Below, piece by piece: positions 44,936-52,661 of a stretch of 53,098 nt of DNA. Position 1 is the first letter of the stretch. The number at the start of each line of letters is the position of its first letter. The notes under the pieces were generated by a model. It had not been told where the DNA came from. It saw nothing but the letters and a program-made list of their open reading frames with translations, and made no database searches. A program made the position numbers and the translations under genes. The DNA comes from a virus. The DNA lies in the IMG/VR virus record IMGVR_UViG_3300048925_000625, positions 1-53,098 of that record, one strand, 5' to 3'.

Positions 44936-45844
44936 ATGTTCTTCCGAAACCTGACCCTGTTCCGCTTCCCCACCGCCATCGACTTTTCCCAGATCGACGC
45001 GATGCTGCCCGAGGCGAGGCTCAAGCCGGTCGGCCCGCTGGAGATGAGCTCGCGCGGCTTCATCTCACCGTTCGGCCGCGGCGAGCACGAGGTACTGTCG
45101 CACCGCATCGGCGATTCCCTGTGGCTGACCGTCGGCGGCGAGGACAGGATCCTGCCCGGCTCGGTGGTCAACGACATGCTCGAGCGCAAGGTCGCCGAGA
45201 TCGAAGAGAAGGAAGGTGTGCGCATCGGCGGCCGCTCACGCAAGCGCCTGAAGGACGACCTGATCCACGAGCTGCTGCCGCGCGCCTTCGTCAAGGGCTC
45301 GCGCACCGACGCGATGCTCGACCTGCAGCACGACTTCGTCGCGGTGGACACCTCCAGCCGCAAGGTCGGCGAGAACGTGGTGTCCGAGATCCGCGGCGCG
45401 CTGGGCACCTTCCCGGCCATGCCGCTGAACGCCGAGGTCGCGCCGCGCTCGGTCCTGACCGGCTGGATCGCCGGCGAGCCGCTGCCCGAAGGTCTGAGCC
45501 TGGGCGAAGAATGCGAGCTGAAGGACCCGATCGAGGGCGGCGCCACGGCGCGCTGCAGCGCGCAGGAGCTGCGCAGCGACGAGATCGAGAAGCACCTGGA
45601 GGCCGGCAAGCAGGTGACGAAGCTGGCGCTGGTGCTGGACGACCACGTGTCCTTCGTCCTCGGCGAGGACCTGGTGATCCGCAAGCTGAAGTTCCTGGAC
45701 GGCGCCCTGGAGCAGCTGGACGACACCGACCAGGACGGCGTGCGCGCCGAGCTGGATTCCCGCTTCGCGCTGATGAGCGGCGAGGTGCGCCGCCTGTTCC
45801 TGCTGCTGGAAGGCGCGCTGAAGCTGAGCAACGCCAATGGCTGA
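44936..45844 (+). CDS. rdgC: RdgC recombination-associated protein
   Basis: 302 aa, full length for RdgC. Conserved pieces include MFFRNLTLFRFPTAIDFSQI, EMSSRGFISPFG, LWLTVGGEDRILPGSVVNDM, RIGGRSRKRLKDDLIHELLP, AFVKGSRTDAMLDLQHDFVA and KQVTKLALVLDDHVSFVLGE. RdgC binds duplex DNA as a ring dimer and restrains RecA-dependent recombination. It is carried here as a phage recombination gene just upstream of the DGR. Confidence 0.95.
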   Translation: MFFRNLTLFRFPTAIDFSQIDAMLPEARLKPVGPLEMSSRGFISPFGRGEHEVLSHRIGDSLWLTVGGEDRILPGSVVNDMLERKVAEIEEKEGVRIGGRSRKRLKDDLIHELLPRAFVKGSRTDAMLDLQHDFVAVDTSSRKVGENVVSEIRGALGTFPAMPLNAEVAPRSVLTGWIAGEPLPEGLSLGEECELKDPIEGGATARCSAQELRSDEIEKHLEAGKQVTKLALVLDDHVSFVLGEDLVIRKLKFLDGALEQLDDTDQDGVRAELDSRFALMSGEVRRLFLLLEGALKLSNANG

Positions 45845-46418
45845 CCAGCCGATGGACCTGCTGGAAGCCTTCGCGCTCGCGGACGAAGTGAGCCCCGACC
45901 CTGCGCGCGCGCATGCCGCGCTGGTGTGCCTGCGCGCCGCGATCAATGCCGGCACCCCGACTACCCAACCCAACACCGCCGGCGCGCCCGGCAAAGGACC
46001 CGCAGTGAACAGCGCCACCACCGAAAGCCCCACCAGCACTCCGACCGTCATCCCTCAGATCAGCTACGCCAGCGCGCCGGCACTGGAGGAGCGGGACCTG
46101 GGCGGCGGCGAAAGGCTCCTGCAGCGCGAATTCCTGGCCGAGCTCGAGCAGCTCAACAAGACAGCGCCCGCCGGCACGACCTGGCGTCTCGAGACGCCCC
46201 ACGAGCTCTTCGCCCTGCGCTCGCCGCTGACCCACGAGAACGCGAACAAGGCGCACAGCATCGACGACAACATCAAGGCGGGCTGGTACTGGACCAGCGA
46301 GGAAACGCCCTGGTTCGCGGGCGGCCGCGTCGTCGTCGGTTTCGCCCTCGGCGTCGTCAACTACGGCCTCGCCAACTACCGCGCGTTCGCGCGTGCGGTG
46401 CGCGTGGTCGGTCAGTAA
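45837..46418 (+). CDS. DGR target protein 1 (C-type-lectin-like, carries VR1)
   Basis: 193 aa from ATG 45837 (8-bp overlap with rdgC), or 137 aa from GTG 46005, which has AAAGGA 6 bases upstream and may be the main start. The first ~55 residues (MDLLEAFALADEVSPDPARA) look like a separate small protein fused in frame. The rest has TTWRLETPHELFALRSP, GWYWTSEETPWFAGGRVVVG and ends in the variable FALGVVNYGLANYRAFARAV, typical of DUF1566/formylglycine-enzyme-like CLec folds. It has no signal peptide. The VR lies at the extreme C-terminus. Confidence 0.88.
   Translation: MADQPMDLLEAFALADEVSPDPARAHAALVCLRAAINAGTPTTQPNTAGAPGKGPAVNSATTESPTSTPTVIPQISYASAPALEERDLGGGERLLQREFLAELEQLNKTAPAGTTWRLETPHELFALRSPLTHENANKAHSIDDNIKAGWYWTSEETPWFAGGRVVVGFALGVVNYGLANYRAFARAVRVVGQ
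46306..46417 (+). repeat. DGR variable repeat VR1
   Basis: 112 bp matching the template repeat at 47398-47509. In the 33-bp core, template AAC codons become CTC, GTC, AAC, TAC, GGC, CTC, AAC and TAC, i.e. 10 of 16 template adenines changed and no other internal base. The only other difference is G to C at 46413 in the 3' IMH region. A GGCCC-TT-GGGCC repeat follows the stop at 46421. Confidence 0.95.
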
Positions 46419-46458
46419 TTGGCCCTTGGGCCTTTCCTCCTTTCAAGGACACGCAACC

Positions 46459-46890
46459 ATGAAGCATCAGGTCCTGCTCAACGTCGAGCGCCTCACCATA
46501 AACATCACCCAGCCGCCGCGCGGCGAGGAATTTTCCGCCGTGCTTGGCTCGGTGGTGGAAGGAGCCCAGGTACCGAGCGAGTACCGCGAGCTCGGCGGCG
46601 GCGAACGCATCACGCAGGCGCAGGCCTTGCGCGAGGTCGCGGAGCTCGGCGCCGGCTGGCGCCTGGAGACGCCGCACGAGCTGTTCGCACTCGTGGACTA
46701 CGGCCACAAGAACAAGCACGGCGCCTACACCCGCGACGAGAGTTTGAAGGACGGCCCGTATTGGACGAACCAGGAAACGCCCTGGTTCGCGGGCGGCCGC
46801 GTCGTCGTCGGTTTCGCCTACGGCGTCGTCGACTACAGCGTCGCCCACTACCGCGCGTTCGCGCGTGCGGTGCGCGTGGTCGGTCAGTAA
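46459..46890 (+). CDS. DGR target protein 2 (C-type-lectin-like, carries VR2)
   Basis: 143 aa from ATG 46459 with AAGGA upstream. It is a paralogue of target 1: RELGGGERITQAQALREVAE, WRLETPHELFALVDYG, YWTNQETPWFAGGRVVVGFA, then the variable core YGVVDYSVAHYRAFARAV. No signal peptide or virion-attachment domain is visible. VR2 covers its C-terminal ~37 residues. Tandem targets allow two versions to be diversified from one template. Confidence 0.92.
   Translation: MKHQVLLNVERLTINITQPPRGEEFSAVLGSVVEGAQVPSEYRELGGGERITQAQALREVAELGAGWRLETPHELFALVDYGHKNKHGAYTRDESLKDGPYWTNQETPWFAGGRVVVGFAYGVVDYSVAHYRAFARAVRVVGQ
46778..46889 (+). repeat. DGR variable repeat VR2
   Basis: 112 bp. Template AAC codons become TAC, GTC, GAC, TAC, AGC, GTC, CAC and TAC: 10 of 16 template adenines changed, no other internal base. 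It shares the G-to-C change in the 3' IMH region (46885) with VR1. Its pattern differs from VR1 at most codons, so the two were mutagenised independently. Confidence 0.95.
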
Positions 46891-46911
46891 TTTGATTTTG
46901 GACTGAGCCCG

Positions 46912-47340
46912 ATGAGCTACCAAGTCCCCAAGCTCGTGCAGGATGTCCGCCGTTTGCGCGCGGACGTCGAGATGGCAGTGCGCGGGTTCGATCGCTTCCA
47001 CAAGTACGGAAGCGGCGACTGCCTGCGCCGCCAGGTGCTGGCGGTCCAGAGGACCGGGCTGCGCGCCTGGCGTGACAAGGCGCAGCAGGCCCAGTGGCTC
47101 GACCGGCTCATCCACGAGATCGACCAGCTCAAGGAAGAAATGCAGTTCGCGCAGGACGTCCGCGCGTTCCGCGGCCTCGTACAGTTCCAGCACCTCTACC
47201 GCCAGGTCGACGAGATCGGGCGGCAGGCAGGTGGCTGGCGCAAGCAGCACCCCAGTGCCCAGAATGCACGCCGCTCAGGCGGCGCGCAGCGTGGCCAGAT
47301 ACTGAGTACCCATGCCACCCCGAGTGGGGTCAACGCATGA
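46912..47340 (+). CDS. avd: DGR accessory variability determinant (Avd)
   Basis: 142 aa. A helical-bundle protein with the Avd pattern: LVQDVRRLRADVEMAVRGFD, FHKYGSGDCLRRQVLAVQRT, AWRDKAQQAQWLDRLIHEID and FRGLVQFQHLYRQVDEIGRQ. In BPP-1 Avd is a pentamer that binds the reverse transcriptase and template RNA and is needed for mutagenic homing. Its stop overlaps the reverse transcriptase ATG (ATGA at 47337). The order target-avd-TR-RT is the same as in BPP-1. Confidence 0.92.
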   Translation: MSYQVPKLVQDVRRLRADVEMAVRGFDRFHKYGSGDCLRRQVLAVQRTGLRAWRDKAQQAQWLDRLIHEIDQLKEEMQFAQDVRAFRGLVQFQHLYRQVDEIGRQAGGWRKQHPSAQNARRSGGAQRGQILSTHATPSGVNA

Positions 47341-48713
47341 CGAACCTGTGCTACCAGAATGGATGCGCAGGCGGGTCCCAAGCGCGTGGGGATGCGTCGC
47401 CCTGGTTCGCGGGCGGCCGCGTCGTCGTCGGTTTCGCCAACGGCAACGTCAACAACAACAACGCCAACAACCGCGCGTTCGCGCGTGCGGTGCGCGTGGT
47501 CGGTGAGTATCAGGGTGCAGGCCGGACGCTGTTCGAAGAGCTCTATTTGTCCTACCTCGCGGCACGCCGCGGGAAGAAACCCAGTCTCAACAAGCTGGCG
47601 TTCGAAGCCCGATGGGCAGACCGCCTGTTGGAGCTGGAACAGCGGCTGACGGCCGGCACATGGGAGCCGTCGCCCTACACGTGCTTCGTCGCGGAGCTGC
47701 CGAAGGCACGCGAGATCCATGCTCCTGACTTCGCCGACCGCGTTGTCCACCACTGGGCGGTCGAGCGGATCGAGCCGGCCTTCGAGCGCATCTTCATCCA
47801 CGACTCGTACGCGAATCGGGCCGGCAAGGGATCGCATGCCGCCGTGCGGCGCGCTACCCAGTTCGTGCGCGAGGTGCACAGCGGCCATGGCGGCGGCTGG
47901 TACCTGCAGCTCGACATCGCGAACTTCTTCTACTCGATCTCGCGGCGCCGGCTCTGGGAGATATTGAAGCGCGGCATGCAGCGTGCGGCTGTGCCGGACC
48001 AGGTGCAGCGGGTGATGCATGCCCTACTGCGCCGCTCGGCGAACGAGCACGGCGTGCGCTACCGGTCGACCGCGGCGCAGCGTGCCATGGTGCCGCGGCA
48101 TAAGCAGCTCGTGAATGCGCGTCGCGGCTGCGGCCTCCCGATCGGCAACCTGCCATCCCAGTTCCTCGCCAACGTCTACATGAACGAGTTCGACCAGTTC
48201 GTGAAGCACGAGCTGAAGGCGAAGCGCTACATCCGTTACGTCGACGACTTCGTGCTATTCCACCACGACAGAGCCGTCCTAACCGATCAGCTGCAGCGAA
48301 TCGAACGGTTCCTCGCTGACCACCTCGGGCTGCGGTTGAAGGACGACATCCGGCTGCGCCGGCTGACCGACGGCCTGGACTTCCTGGGCTACGTGATCCA
48401 TCCGACCCACACCCGGGTGCGCCGGCGTGTGGTTGCCCATGCCCGCGCCGCCTTCGCGTCGTGGGAACAGGCCCACGTCCGCAAGCAGCACCTGTCGGCG
48501 ACGCCGGCCGACCTGCGCCGGATCCGCAACCAGATGGCCAGCTTCGAAGGCCACTTCCGCCATGCGGACAGCTTTCGCCTGCGCGCTGGGCTTCACCGCC
48601 GGTTTCCCTGGCTTCTCGAGGCGTCCTGCAACCGCCGGTTCCACCCGGCCGTGGAGCACCTGCTCCTCCGCATTCCTCTCAGCTGGCGCCGCGCGCCGAA
48701 GGACACCGCATGA
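47337..48713 (+). CDS. DGR reverse transcriptase (TR in frame near its N-terminus)
   Basis: 458 aa from ATG 47337, coupled to avd by ATGA. Residues ~21-57 are encoded by the template repeat. The RT fold starts near 60 (RTLFEELYLSYLAARRGKKP). Motif A is WYLQLDIANFFYSIS (Asp193). Motif B reads GLPIGNLPSQFLANVYM, with the DGR signature IGxxxSQ instead of QGxxxSP. Motif C is YVDDF (Asp303/304). The thumb follows GYVIHPTHTRVRRRV. Starts at GTG 47490 or 47496 would remove most of the TR-coded leader but lack a visible RBS. It makes error-prone cDNA from TR RNA, substituting at adenines. Confidence 0.95.
   Translation: MTNLCYQNGCAGGSQARGDASPWFAGGRVVVGFANGNVNNNNANNRAFARAVRVVGEYQGAGRTLFEELYLSYLAARRGKKPSLNKLAFEARWADRLLELEQRLTAGTWEPSPYTCFVAELPKAREIHAPDFADRVVHHWAVERIEPAFERIFIHDSYANRAGKGSHAAVRRATQFVREVHSGHGGGWYLQLDIANFFYSISRRRLWEILKRGMQRAAVPDQVQRVMHALLRRSANEHGVRYRSTAAQRAMVPRHKQLVNARRGCGLPIGNLPSQFLANVYMNEFDQFVKHELKAKRYIRYVDDFVLFHHDRAVLTDQLQRIERFLADHLGLRLKDDIRLRRLTDGLDFLGYVIHPTHTRVRRRVVAHARAAFASWEQAHVRKQHLSATPADLRRIRNQMASFEGHFRHADSFRLRAGLHRRFPWLLEASCNRRFHPAVEHLLLRIPLSWRRAPKDTA
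47398..47509 (+). repeat. DGR template repeat (TR)
   Basis: 112 bp. The variable core (47439-47471) is AAC GGC AAC GTC AAC AAC AAC AAC GCC AAC AAC: 16 mutable adenines in eight AAC codons. AAC can only become NNC codons, so stop codons never arise. The 3' end GTGCGGTGCGCGTGGTCGGT is the GC-rich IMH-like part, with one mismatch to the VRs at 47505. Flanking sequence before CGCCCTGG is unrelated to the VR genes. Confidence 0.96.
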
Positions 48714-50893: not shown

Positions 50894-51148
50894 GTGCCCA
50901 GGTTCGTGACCATCGAGAAATTCCACGATCTGACCGGCTACACGCCGGATGCCACGCGCTCGAAGATCAAGCGCGGCGAGTGGCTGGAGGGTGCTCTATT
51001 CCGCAGGGCGCCCGACGGCCGAATTCTGATGGACCTTGAGGGCTACGAATGGTGGGTAATTCACGGACGGGAGGCGTCCGGCCAGCTACGGCTGGCAGCA
51101 TCGAGATCGACTTCTACTACCGCGGGGCGCGCTGCCGCGAGCGTGTGA
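50894..51148 (+). CDS. Excisionase (Xis)
   Basis: 84 aa from GTG 50894. VTIEKFHDLTGYTPDATRSK and KRGEWLEGALFRRAPDGRIL, followed by LEGYEWWV, match the excisionase family winged helix. It overlaps the integrase start by 100 bp in another frame; the last ~25 residues may be poorly conserved. It should direct integrase to excision. Confidence 0.85.
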   Translation: MPRFVTIEKFHDLTGYTPDATRSKIKRGEWLEGALFRRAPDGRILMDLEGYEWWVIHGREASGQLRLAASRSTSTTAGRAAASV

Positions 51149-52230
51149 AGCTGGCGCCGACGGCGCGGAATCTGCGCTACTGCGAGAACCTTCTCGGGCA
51201 GATCAAGGTCGAGATCGAGAAAGGCACCTTCGACTACGCCACCCACTTCCCGGACAGCAAGCGGGCCAGGAAGGTGGCGGAGAAGCCGGCGACGCTCGAC
51301 GACCTGGCCACGGTCCTGCAGCGCTGGCTGAAGCAGAAGGATCCGGAGCTCGAGCACAGCACCCAGATCAGCTACCGGCGCATCATCGACAACATCCTCA
51401 TCCCGAGGTGCGGCACGGTGCGGCTGCGCGACTTCGACCGCATCGCGCTCAAGGACCTGGTGGCCACCTTCCCCGACGACGTCAGCGCGAAGCGGATCAA
51501 CAACGTCCTCGGGCCGCTGCGCGGCGCGCTGGACGAAGCGGTCGCCGACGGCCTGATCGCCACCAACCCTGCCGCCGGCTTCCGCGTGAAGCGCCGCGCC
51601 AAGGCCAACGCCCGGGACGAGATCGACCCGTTCACGCCGGTCGAGGTGCGCGCGATCCTGGCCGCCTGCAGCGAGCCGCAGGTGCGCAACTACTGCCAGT
51701 TCAACTTCGCCACCGGCCTGCGCACGTCGGAGATGATCGGCCTGTGCTGGTCCGACGTCGACTTCGCCGCGGGGACGGTCCGGATCCGGCGCGCCTGGGT
51801 GATGGGCAAGATGAAGGCGCCCAAGACCGAGGCGGGCGTGCGCGTCGTGGAGCTGGTGGCGCCGGCGATCGCGGCGCTGAAGGCGCAGCGCGAGCACACC
51901 GCGCTGGCCGGGGAATTCGTGTTCCACGATCCGCGCACGGGCGCCCGCTGGGGTTCGGACCAGAGCCTGCGTGCCGGCGACTGGCAGCGCGCCCTGCGCC
52001 GCGCCGGCGTGCGCTACCGCTACCCCTACCAGATGCGCCACTCGTTCGCCTCCCAGGCGCTGAGCGCCGGCGAGAACATCATGTGGGTGGCCAAGCAGAT
52101 GGGGCACCGGGACTGGACCATCACGGCCAAGAAGTACGCGCGGTGGATCCCGTCGATCGTCCCGGACGCCGGCAGCAAGGTGGCCGGCCTGTGGACCCCC
52201 GAAAGTGACGATTCATCGGAAGTCGCGTAG
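51049..52230 (+). CDS. int: Tyrosine integrase
   Basis: 393 aa. The N-terminal arm-binding DUF3596-type domain (GSIEIDFYYRGARCRERVKL, KGTFDYATHFPDS) precedes a core-binding SAM-like domain (about 85-175) and the catalytic domain: Arg in FATGLRTSEMIGL, YPYQMRHSFASQ, MGHRDWTITAKKYARW with the Tyr nucleophile. ATG 51049 overlaps xis. It ends 80 bp before the host ssrA gene and reads toward it. Confidence 0.93.
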   Translation: MVGNSRTGGVRPATAGSIEIDFYYRGARCRERVKLAPTARNLRYCENLLGQIKVEIEKGTFDYATHFPDSKRARKVAEKPATLDDLATVLQRWLKQKDPELEHSTQISYRRIIDNILIPRCGTVRLRDFDRIALKDLVATFPDDVSAKRINNVLGPLRGALDEAVADGLIATNPAAGFRVKRRAKANARDEIDPFTPVEVRAILAACSEPQVRNYCQFNFATGLRTSEMIGLCWSDVDFAAGTVRIRRAWVMGKMKAPKTEAGVRVVELVAPAIAALKAQREHTALAGEFVFHDPRTGARWGSDQSLRAGDWQRALRRAGVRYRYPYQMRHSFASQALSAGENIMWVAKQMGHRDWTITAKKYARWIPSIVPDAGSKVAGLWTPESDDSSEVA

Positions 52231-52309: not shown

Positions 52310-52661
52310 GGGGGTGCACTGGTTTCGACGGGGGTTGCAAAATCGCTTGGCGCATGCCGAGGGGGCAGCTTTCCTCGTAAATCCAGCCGCAAACTTATAG
52401 TTGCCAACGACGACAACTACGCTCTGGCCGCTTAAGGCCTAGCCCCGAAATCGCTTGTGTCCGTGCTCGCGACGTAGGGTCATTATCACGGAATCGCCGG
52501 TGGTGGCTGCCTGTCAGCCATTGGCTAAATCAAGCAGGCTGGTCCCGGGATGCGCTTCGCACATCGTGCTGTTCCGGGGCGAGATCCAACGATGAGCTAA
52601 GCATGTAGTGCCGGGGATGGAGTGCCTTCGGACGGCGGTTCGATTCCGCCCACCTCCACCA
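52310..52661 (+). ncRNA. ssrA: Transfer-messenger RNA
   Basis: The 5' GGGGGTG pairs with 3' CACCTCC before ACCA (encoded CCA at 52659-52661). The conserved GGTTTCGACGGG and GGCGCATGCCGAGG blocks and the T-arm GGTTCGATTCC are present. The tag reading frame is 52403-52435 (ANDDNYALAA, stop TAA). It rescues stalled ribosomes. It is intact, so the prophage did not destroy it. Confidence 0.97.

Follow-up and report, generated by a model that had tools for sequence, protein, structure and literature searches.

The 53,098-bp window analyzed here, the whole of IMG/VR record IMGVR_UViG_3300048925_000625, carries a diversity-generating retroelement (DGR). Judging from sequence comparison, one template repeat (TR) of this DGR very probably serves two lectin-like targets, is translated within the reverse transcriptase (RT), and pairs at its 3' end with a conserved upstream RNA. 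DGR models rest almost wholly on BPP-1, in which the template is intergenic and a downstream spacer (Sp) primes the complementary DNA (cDNA). The window belongs to a clade that appears to translate the TR within the RT and keeps its RNA upstream, indicating that not all DGRs follow the spacer arrangement. The system is a real DGR, and its RNA and gene architecture appears to be a new variation.

One template and two variable repeats

The TR and the two variable repeats (VR1 and VR2) align without gaps over 112 bp. Sixteen of the 18 TR adenines are in eight AAC codons, and the other two are at the 3' end (47506 and 47509). VR1 and VR2 each differ from the TR by ten changes, every one at the AAC adenines, plus G47505 to C, and by nothing else in the 112 bp. 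Under a hypergeometric model, a confinement of all ten internal changes to the 16 adenines by chance has a probability of ~3e-10 per VR. Between VR1 and VR2, there are six nucleotide differences, in five of the eight variable codons, which encode L/Y, V/V, N/D, Y/Y, G/S, L/V, N/H, and Y/Y, respectively. A first-pass annotation of the window had given the same outer coordinates and lengths, the same confinement of the ten changes per VR to the AAC adenines, the shared G-to-C change, and a difference between the VRs at most variable codons, all of which our recomputation reproduces. It had also described one template feeding two targets, in agreement with the matches of the accessory protein to phrog_3206 (9e-12), of the RT to phrog_1423 (2e-94), and of both targets to Lcl_C.

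A target-protein scan leads to a syntenic relative (L092) with the same layout and an RT 71% identical to that of the window. An RT-domain alignment scan gives 49 loci with a TR and with RTs 52–74% identical, which we call clade A; a genome-contig scan with the window RT returns distant RTs only, mostly from Patescibacteria. In clade A, 60% of the TR adenines and 1.35% of the other bases are changed, with a finder that is biased towards A. The VRs of these relatives differ from the TRs almost solely at adenines. The TR carries GTGAGT at its 3' end in 49 of 49 loci and the VR carries GTCAGT in 80 of 85 cases; among the five exceptions, two come from a register error of the finder and three retain GTCAG. 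Therefore, the TR and VR 3' ends show the difference in the initiation of mutagenic homing sequence (IMH* and IMH) that is expected of a DGR. The homology and the adenine-only TR/VR differences argue for adenine-mutagenic retrohoming, by which the one TR would feed both C-type-lectin-like targets.

Unlike in BPP-1, a stem-loop is not enriched behind the VRs (stems of at least 6 in 4 of 85 clade A flanks, compared with 3.9% after shuffling), and GGCC-CTTG-GGCC is present behind VR1 only. Instead, a linear motif without a stem-loop, GTCAGTRATTKGNCTTTYTG, follows the VR stop in the 85 flanks, with positions 1–20 conserved, and is possibly a retrohoming signal. In L123, L130, and L148, the VRs at about -640 continue beyond the usual stop codon and reach a second one after ...ASQCLVIGQ, which makes the 3' signal look tandem.

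The template as the probable start of the reverse transcriptase

In the window, the frame of the RT runs without a stop from 47076 across the TR. The ATG of the RT at 47337 overlaps the avd stop as ATGA, and no ATG occurs in the interval from the TR to the RT domain. In all 49 clade A loci, the frame in which the RT reads the TR coincides with the VR (AAC) frame; in other groups, the RT frame runs through the TR in the +1 phase (30 of 34 loci). Eight different distances, from 15 to 36 nt, separate the GAG codon of the TR from the RT domain in the clade, and all of them are in phase. The RT starts with ATGA in 46 of 49 loci and is preceded by a Shine-Dalgarno-like sequence in 47 of 49, and only L130 and L137 have an ATG in the interval from the TR to the RT. 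Where most VRs carry a stop codon after GTCAGT, the TR has TAT, TGT, or TTT. In an AlphaFold2 model of the RT (33-sequence alignment), residues 1–60, comprising the leader and the TR, have a predicted local distance difference test score (pLDDT) of ~30, and the RT fold begins at about residue 61 with pLDDT mostly of 80–97. The conserved phase, the ATG position, the avoidance of stops, and the model together suggest that the TR is translated in the RT. The simplest reading is that the leader and the TR form a disordered N-terminal tail. Judging from the reading frames, the in-frame TR–RT fusion is restricted to clade A among the groups surveyed. The first-pass annotation had overlooked both this in-frame TR and its coupling to an upstream RNA. 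L144, whose RT is 74% identical to that of the window, lacks the upstream TR and leader; its DGR may have decayed or recombined.

According to one survey, most DGRs have an intergenic TR (PMC8144416). An overlap of the TR with the RT open reading frame (ORF) is already known as DiGReF group 3, as are DGRs with two to four VRs (PMC3521204). In the passages of that source that were consulted, the overlap is taken as an annotation class, without conserved phase, stop avoidance, or an RNA helix. No description of a conserved phase or stop avoidance of the TR is found in the literature searched, a search that did not extend to the key papers.

A conserved RNA and its helix with the template 3' end

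A structured RNA spans the avd 3' end and the RT leader, from 47298 to 47390 with its long-range strand included. RNAalifold on the codon alignment gives a z-score of about -17 for the stretch from the ATG and of about 0 downstream of the TR; with the alignment extended upstream, the z-scores near the avd stop lie between about -8 and -45. Pair counting in 33 loci places 27 pairs in four helices, with 96.1% of cells paired, compared with 29–52% when the counting is slid by 1–3 columns. In these loci, 18 pairs are changed on both sides, and the covariation is 0.417 (0.161 for shuffled and at most 0.093 for slid alignments). A covariance model, R1, matches the window at 47295–47394 and recovers held-out clade members at E<1e-12. 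Among clade B (introduced below), BPP-1, and those distant RT loci that were scanned, it matches nothing at E<=0.2, and Rfam has no match at E<=1 in 47200–47700. Downstream of the TR, at the position of Sp in BPP-1, neither conserved structure nor a covarying partner nor synonymous constraint is found in clade A.

The upstream strand of this RNA, GANACU, pairs with AGUNUC at the TR 3' end, with Watson–Crick pairing in 47 of the 49 loci and a U–G pair in the other two. In particular, the pair at N is A–T in 20 loci, C–G in 17, T–A in 10, and T–G in 2. Mapped on the RT tree, N has changed at least eight times on the upstream side and ten times in the TR, and at least eight changes in the helix are compensated. 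Another pair of the helix is changed from G–C to T–A in L102 and to C–G instead in L188 and L189. Among new loci found from the DNA pattern alone, L186 pairs GACACT with AGTGTC, and L188 and L189, which have the same sequence, pair CACACT with AGTGTG. Own upstream partners score higher than partners swapped between clade loci (5.94 versus 4.59, p<=0.0005), and downstream of the TR own partners are no better than swapped ones. The permutation ignores relatedness, for which the count on the RT tree corrects. In both genes, N falls on the second position of a codon, which encodes I, T, or K in Avd and Y, C, or F in the RT. Therefore, silent drift cannot explain the covariation, and the pairing dictates amino-acid changes. 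By this comparative evidence, the transcript of the avd 3' end, RT leader, and TR folds into a conserved RNA in which GANACU is paired to AGUNUC.

The idea that an upstream partner is unique to clade A does not hold, since two other groups have one. Clade B (Burkholderia phage Magia and Pseudomonas phages) resembles the window in that the TR abuts the RT (10–46 nt), two VRs are usual, and a structured upstream RNA has a strand paired to the TR 3' end; it differs in that its RT is ~40% identical, its TR is read in +1, and its RNA sequence is unmatched by R1. The +1 reading of the TR is Thr-rich in nearly all members (L151–L179, L097, and L098), and the strand AATCTG pairs with CAGATT of the TR, with compensated changes in L095, L170, and L176. 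In L012–L091, mostly Patescibacteria DGRs, a conserved 12-bp helix directly precedes the TR, and strands ~100–115 nt upstream, for example AAATGAAGA, pair with the TR 3' end (TCTTCATTT). In the loci of this group that were inspected, avd is between the TR and the RT on the opposite strand. Upstream partners beat swapped ones in both groups (p<=0.0005 each), and the Patescibacteria-type DGRs exceed swapped pairs downstream too. In BPP-1, an 8-nt upstream complement to TR108-115 is not clearly beyond chance. The partners in two further groups suggest that pairing of an upstream strand with the TR 3' end may be a common feature, and perhaps a general rule, of DGR RNA.

Proposed initiation of reverse transcription and alternative readings

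BPP-1 (mtd-avd-TR-brt) and the window are alike in Avd, the RT, the order target-avd-TR-RT, adenine mutagenesis, the IMH/IMH* difference, a target of C-type lectin (CLec) fold, and a TR 3' end paired with a nearby strand. They differ in VR number (one and two, respectively), and their RTs are ~30% identical (the BPP-1 RT is matched by tblastn at 2e-26). The TR of BPP-1 is intergenic, with a 140-nt Sp before the RT, whereas the TR of the window is in frame, with the RT domain ~20 nt after it and no structured spacer between them.

In the upstream strand of the window, the helix is followed by G47304, which is mismatched to G47505 of the TR, and then by A47305. The universal difference of TR G and VR C falls on this mismatch; the VR base C could pair with G47304 and the TR base G cannot. 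The TR 3' end of BPP-1 pairs with Sp48-54, followed by C55 and the published primer A56 (PMC12875486). Because the order in the window matches that of BPP-1, we propose the helix for initiation, with A47305 as a candidate primer. The most likely role of the helix would be to bring the TR 3' end to the RT–Avd complex for cDNA initiation; that it presents this end with A47305 as candidate primer is, from geometry, at best an even prospect. More tentatively, the cDNA would be primed from the upstream RNA (GANACU-G-A) and not from Sp, with the template, the RT messenger RNA (mRNA), and the RT N-terminus in one molecule and P2 as a switch. Upstream priming would free the 3' side, and these three could thereby have merged. 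The P2 hairpin covers the Shine-Dalgarno-like sequence that precedes the RT; folding of the template and translation of the RT mRNA are therefore probably mutually exclusive, and translation of avd, coupled through ATGA, would open P2. The avd-RT reading frame and a target make a compact system for exact compensatory-mutation tests of the cDNA start.

The helix could instead close the TR loop or mark the cDNA end, with cDNA primed, like that of BPP-1, from an element downstream that has escaped recognition, an alternative that is plausible though it falls somewhat short of even. In BPP-1, the published primer belongs to the Sp that follows the TR, and the Sp48-54/TR123-129 pairing is recovered here by computation. 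In addition, an upstream motif of BPP-1 is reported to terminate reverse transcription (PMC12875486), a point in favour of this alternative. However, downstream priming has no counterpart in the structure, synonymous sites, or covariation of clade A downstream of the TR, and the helix is at the extreme TR 3' end, with one mismatch and an A next on its upstream strand, the order seen in BPP-1. Three observations weigh against the overall reading: the synonymous sites directly 3' of the TR are unconstrained, the ratio of nonsynonymous to synonymous changes in the leader (~0.5) points to weak protein-level constraint, and, when single sequences are folded, the stability of the upstream region is unexceptional (mean z-score -0.47). 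Owing to the last, the case for the RNA rests on comparative evidence.

Translation of the TR and separate diversification of the two VRs also have competitors. In a genome of 68% GC, the frame could be open by chance, with the RT starting 3' of the TR at GTG or TTG and the TR untranslated. In-frame GTG (47490 and 47496) and TTG (47547) codons are available as starts, and clade B reads its TR in the other phase, with stops there in some members (L161 and L172). Such an artefact is nevertheless improbable in view of the phase kept in 49 of 49 loci across eight linker lengths, the ATGA coupling, the conserved ATG position, the TNT codon in place of the VR stop, and the lack of a conserved start between the TR and the RT. 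As for the VRs, the first-pass annotation held that both targets were diversified independently. In 31 loci with two VRs, 290 sites are changed in both copies and 136 of them share the base, a fraction near the ~0.42–0.45 expected from the mutation spectrum, consistent with independent diversification of VR1 and VR2. For the window pair by itself, in which six of eight doubly mutated sites have the same base, independence is no more than plausible. These six would also suit a duplicated target with gene conversion in a DGR that is now silent. We doubt this strongly, as the sharing at the 31 loci follows the spectrum, the targets are unlike outside the VR (A6, 50% identity), and the RT, Avd, and RNA element are intact. 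The earlier description of the element as intact is supported by the sequences of the RT, Avd, TR, and IMH, and recent activity of the DGR is at most an inference from this one genome.

The cassette reads, in order, RdgC-like gene, target 1, target 2, avd, and RT ORF (Table 1).

Table 1 Features of the DGR and its surroundings in the window.
Feature	Position	Strand	Description
RdgC-like gene	44936-45844		Pfam RdgC 5e-98
Target 1, 193 aa	45837..46418	+	C-type-lectin-like (Lcl_C/DUF1566) C-terminal domain with VR1; Pfam Lcl_C 1.6e-5, below curated cut-off
VR1	46306-46417	+	112 bp, in frame in target 1
Target 2, 143 aa	46459..46890	+	Lcl_C-like, with VR2; Pfam Lcl_C 3.8e-6, below cut-off
VR2	46778-46889	+	112 bp, within target 2
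Avd accessory protein	46912..47340	+	phrog_3206 'Avd protein of DGR' 9e-12; Pfam bAvd 3.5e-6
Upstream strand GATACT	47298..47303	+	Pairs with 47506-47511; covariation in 49 loci
Candidate priming adenosine	A47305	+	Proposed from geometry: helix, one mismatch, A
Conserved RNA element P1-P3	47309..47390	+	Pair counts; covariance model
P1	47309-47315/47384-47390
P2 hairpin	47317-47321/47326-47330		Covers GGGG upstream of RT ATG
P3	within 47345-47355/47361-47371
RT ORF, 458 aa	47337..48713	+	phrog_1423 2.3e-94; RVT_1 2.7e-17; YVDD motif
TR	47398-47509	+	112 bp; in frame within RT ORF, ~residues 21-57
IMH*-like TR 3' end GTGAGTATC	47503-47511	+	VRs have GTCAGT, then stop codon
TR-side strand AGTATC	47506..47511	+
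Tyrosine integrase	51049-52230
Transfer-messenger RNA (tmRNA) gene	52310-52661		Tag ANDDNYALAA; right end, beside integrase

The AlphaFold2 model of target 2 has pLDDT 81. Its top PDB fold match by Foldseek is 8q4e, the C-terminal domain of Legionella Lcl, followed by C-type lectins; the matches are modest (best E 3e-3, template modelling score ~0.5), and nearly all top matches have one fold. The weak Lcl_C matches and the Foldseek result are consistent with targets of CLec fold whose C-terminus carries the VR, as in DGRs. The closest solved chain to the window RT is PDB 8ub7 'Reverse transcriptase' (7e-35).

The host phage is a temperate siphovirus-type prophage with a DGR. Siphovirus-type head and tail genes are on the minus strand from 2 to 21 kb of the record, and the DGR targets are far from the tail genes. 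The RdgC-like gene is directly 5' of the targets in the window and in the syntenic L092 (5001-5906), and it could conceivably be connected with recombination in the course of retrohoming. The tmRNA gene at the right end is probably the integration site, and the integrase is 5' of it, on the unusual side.

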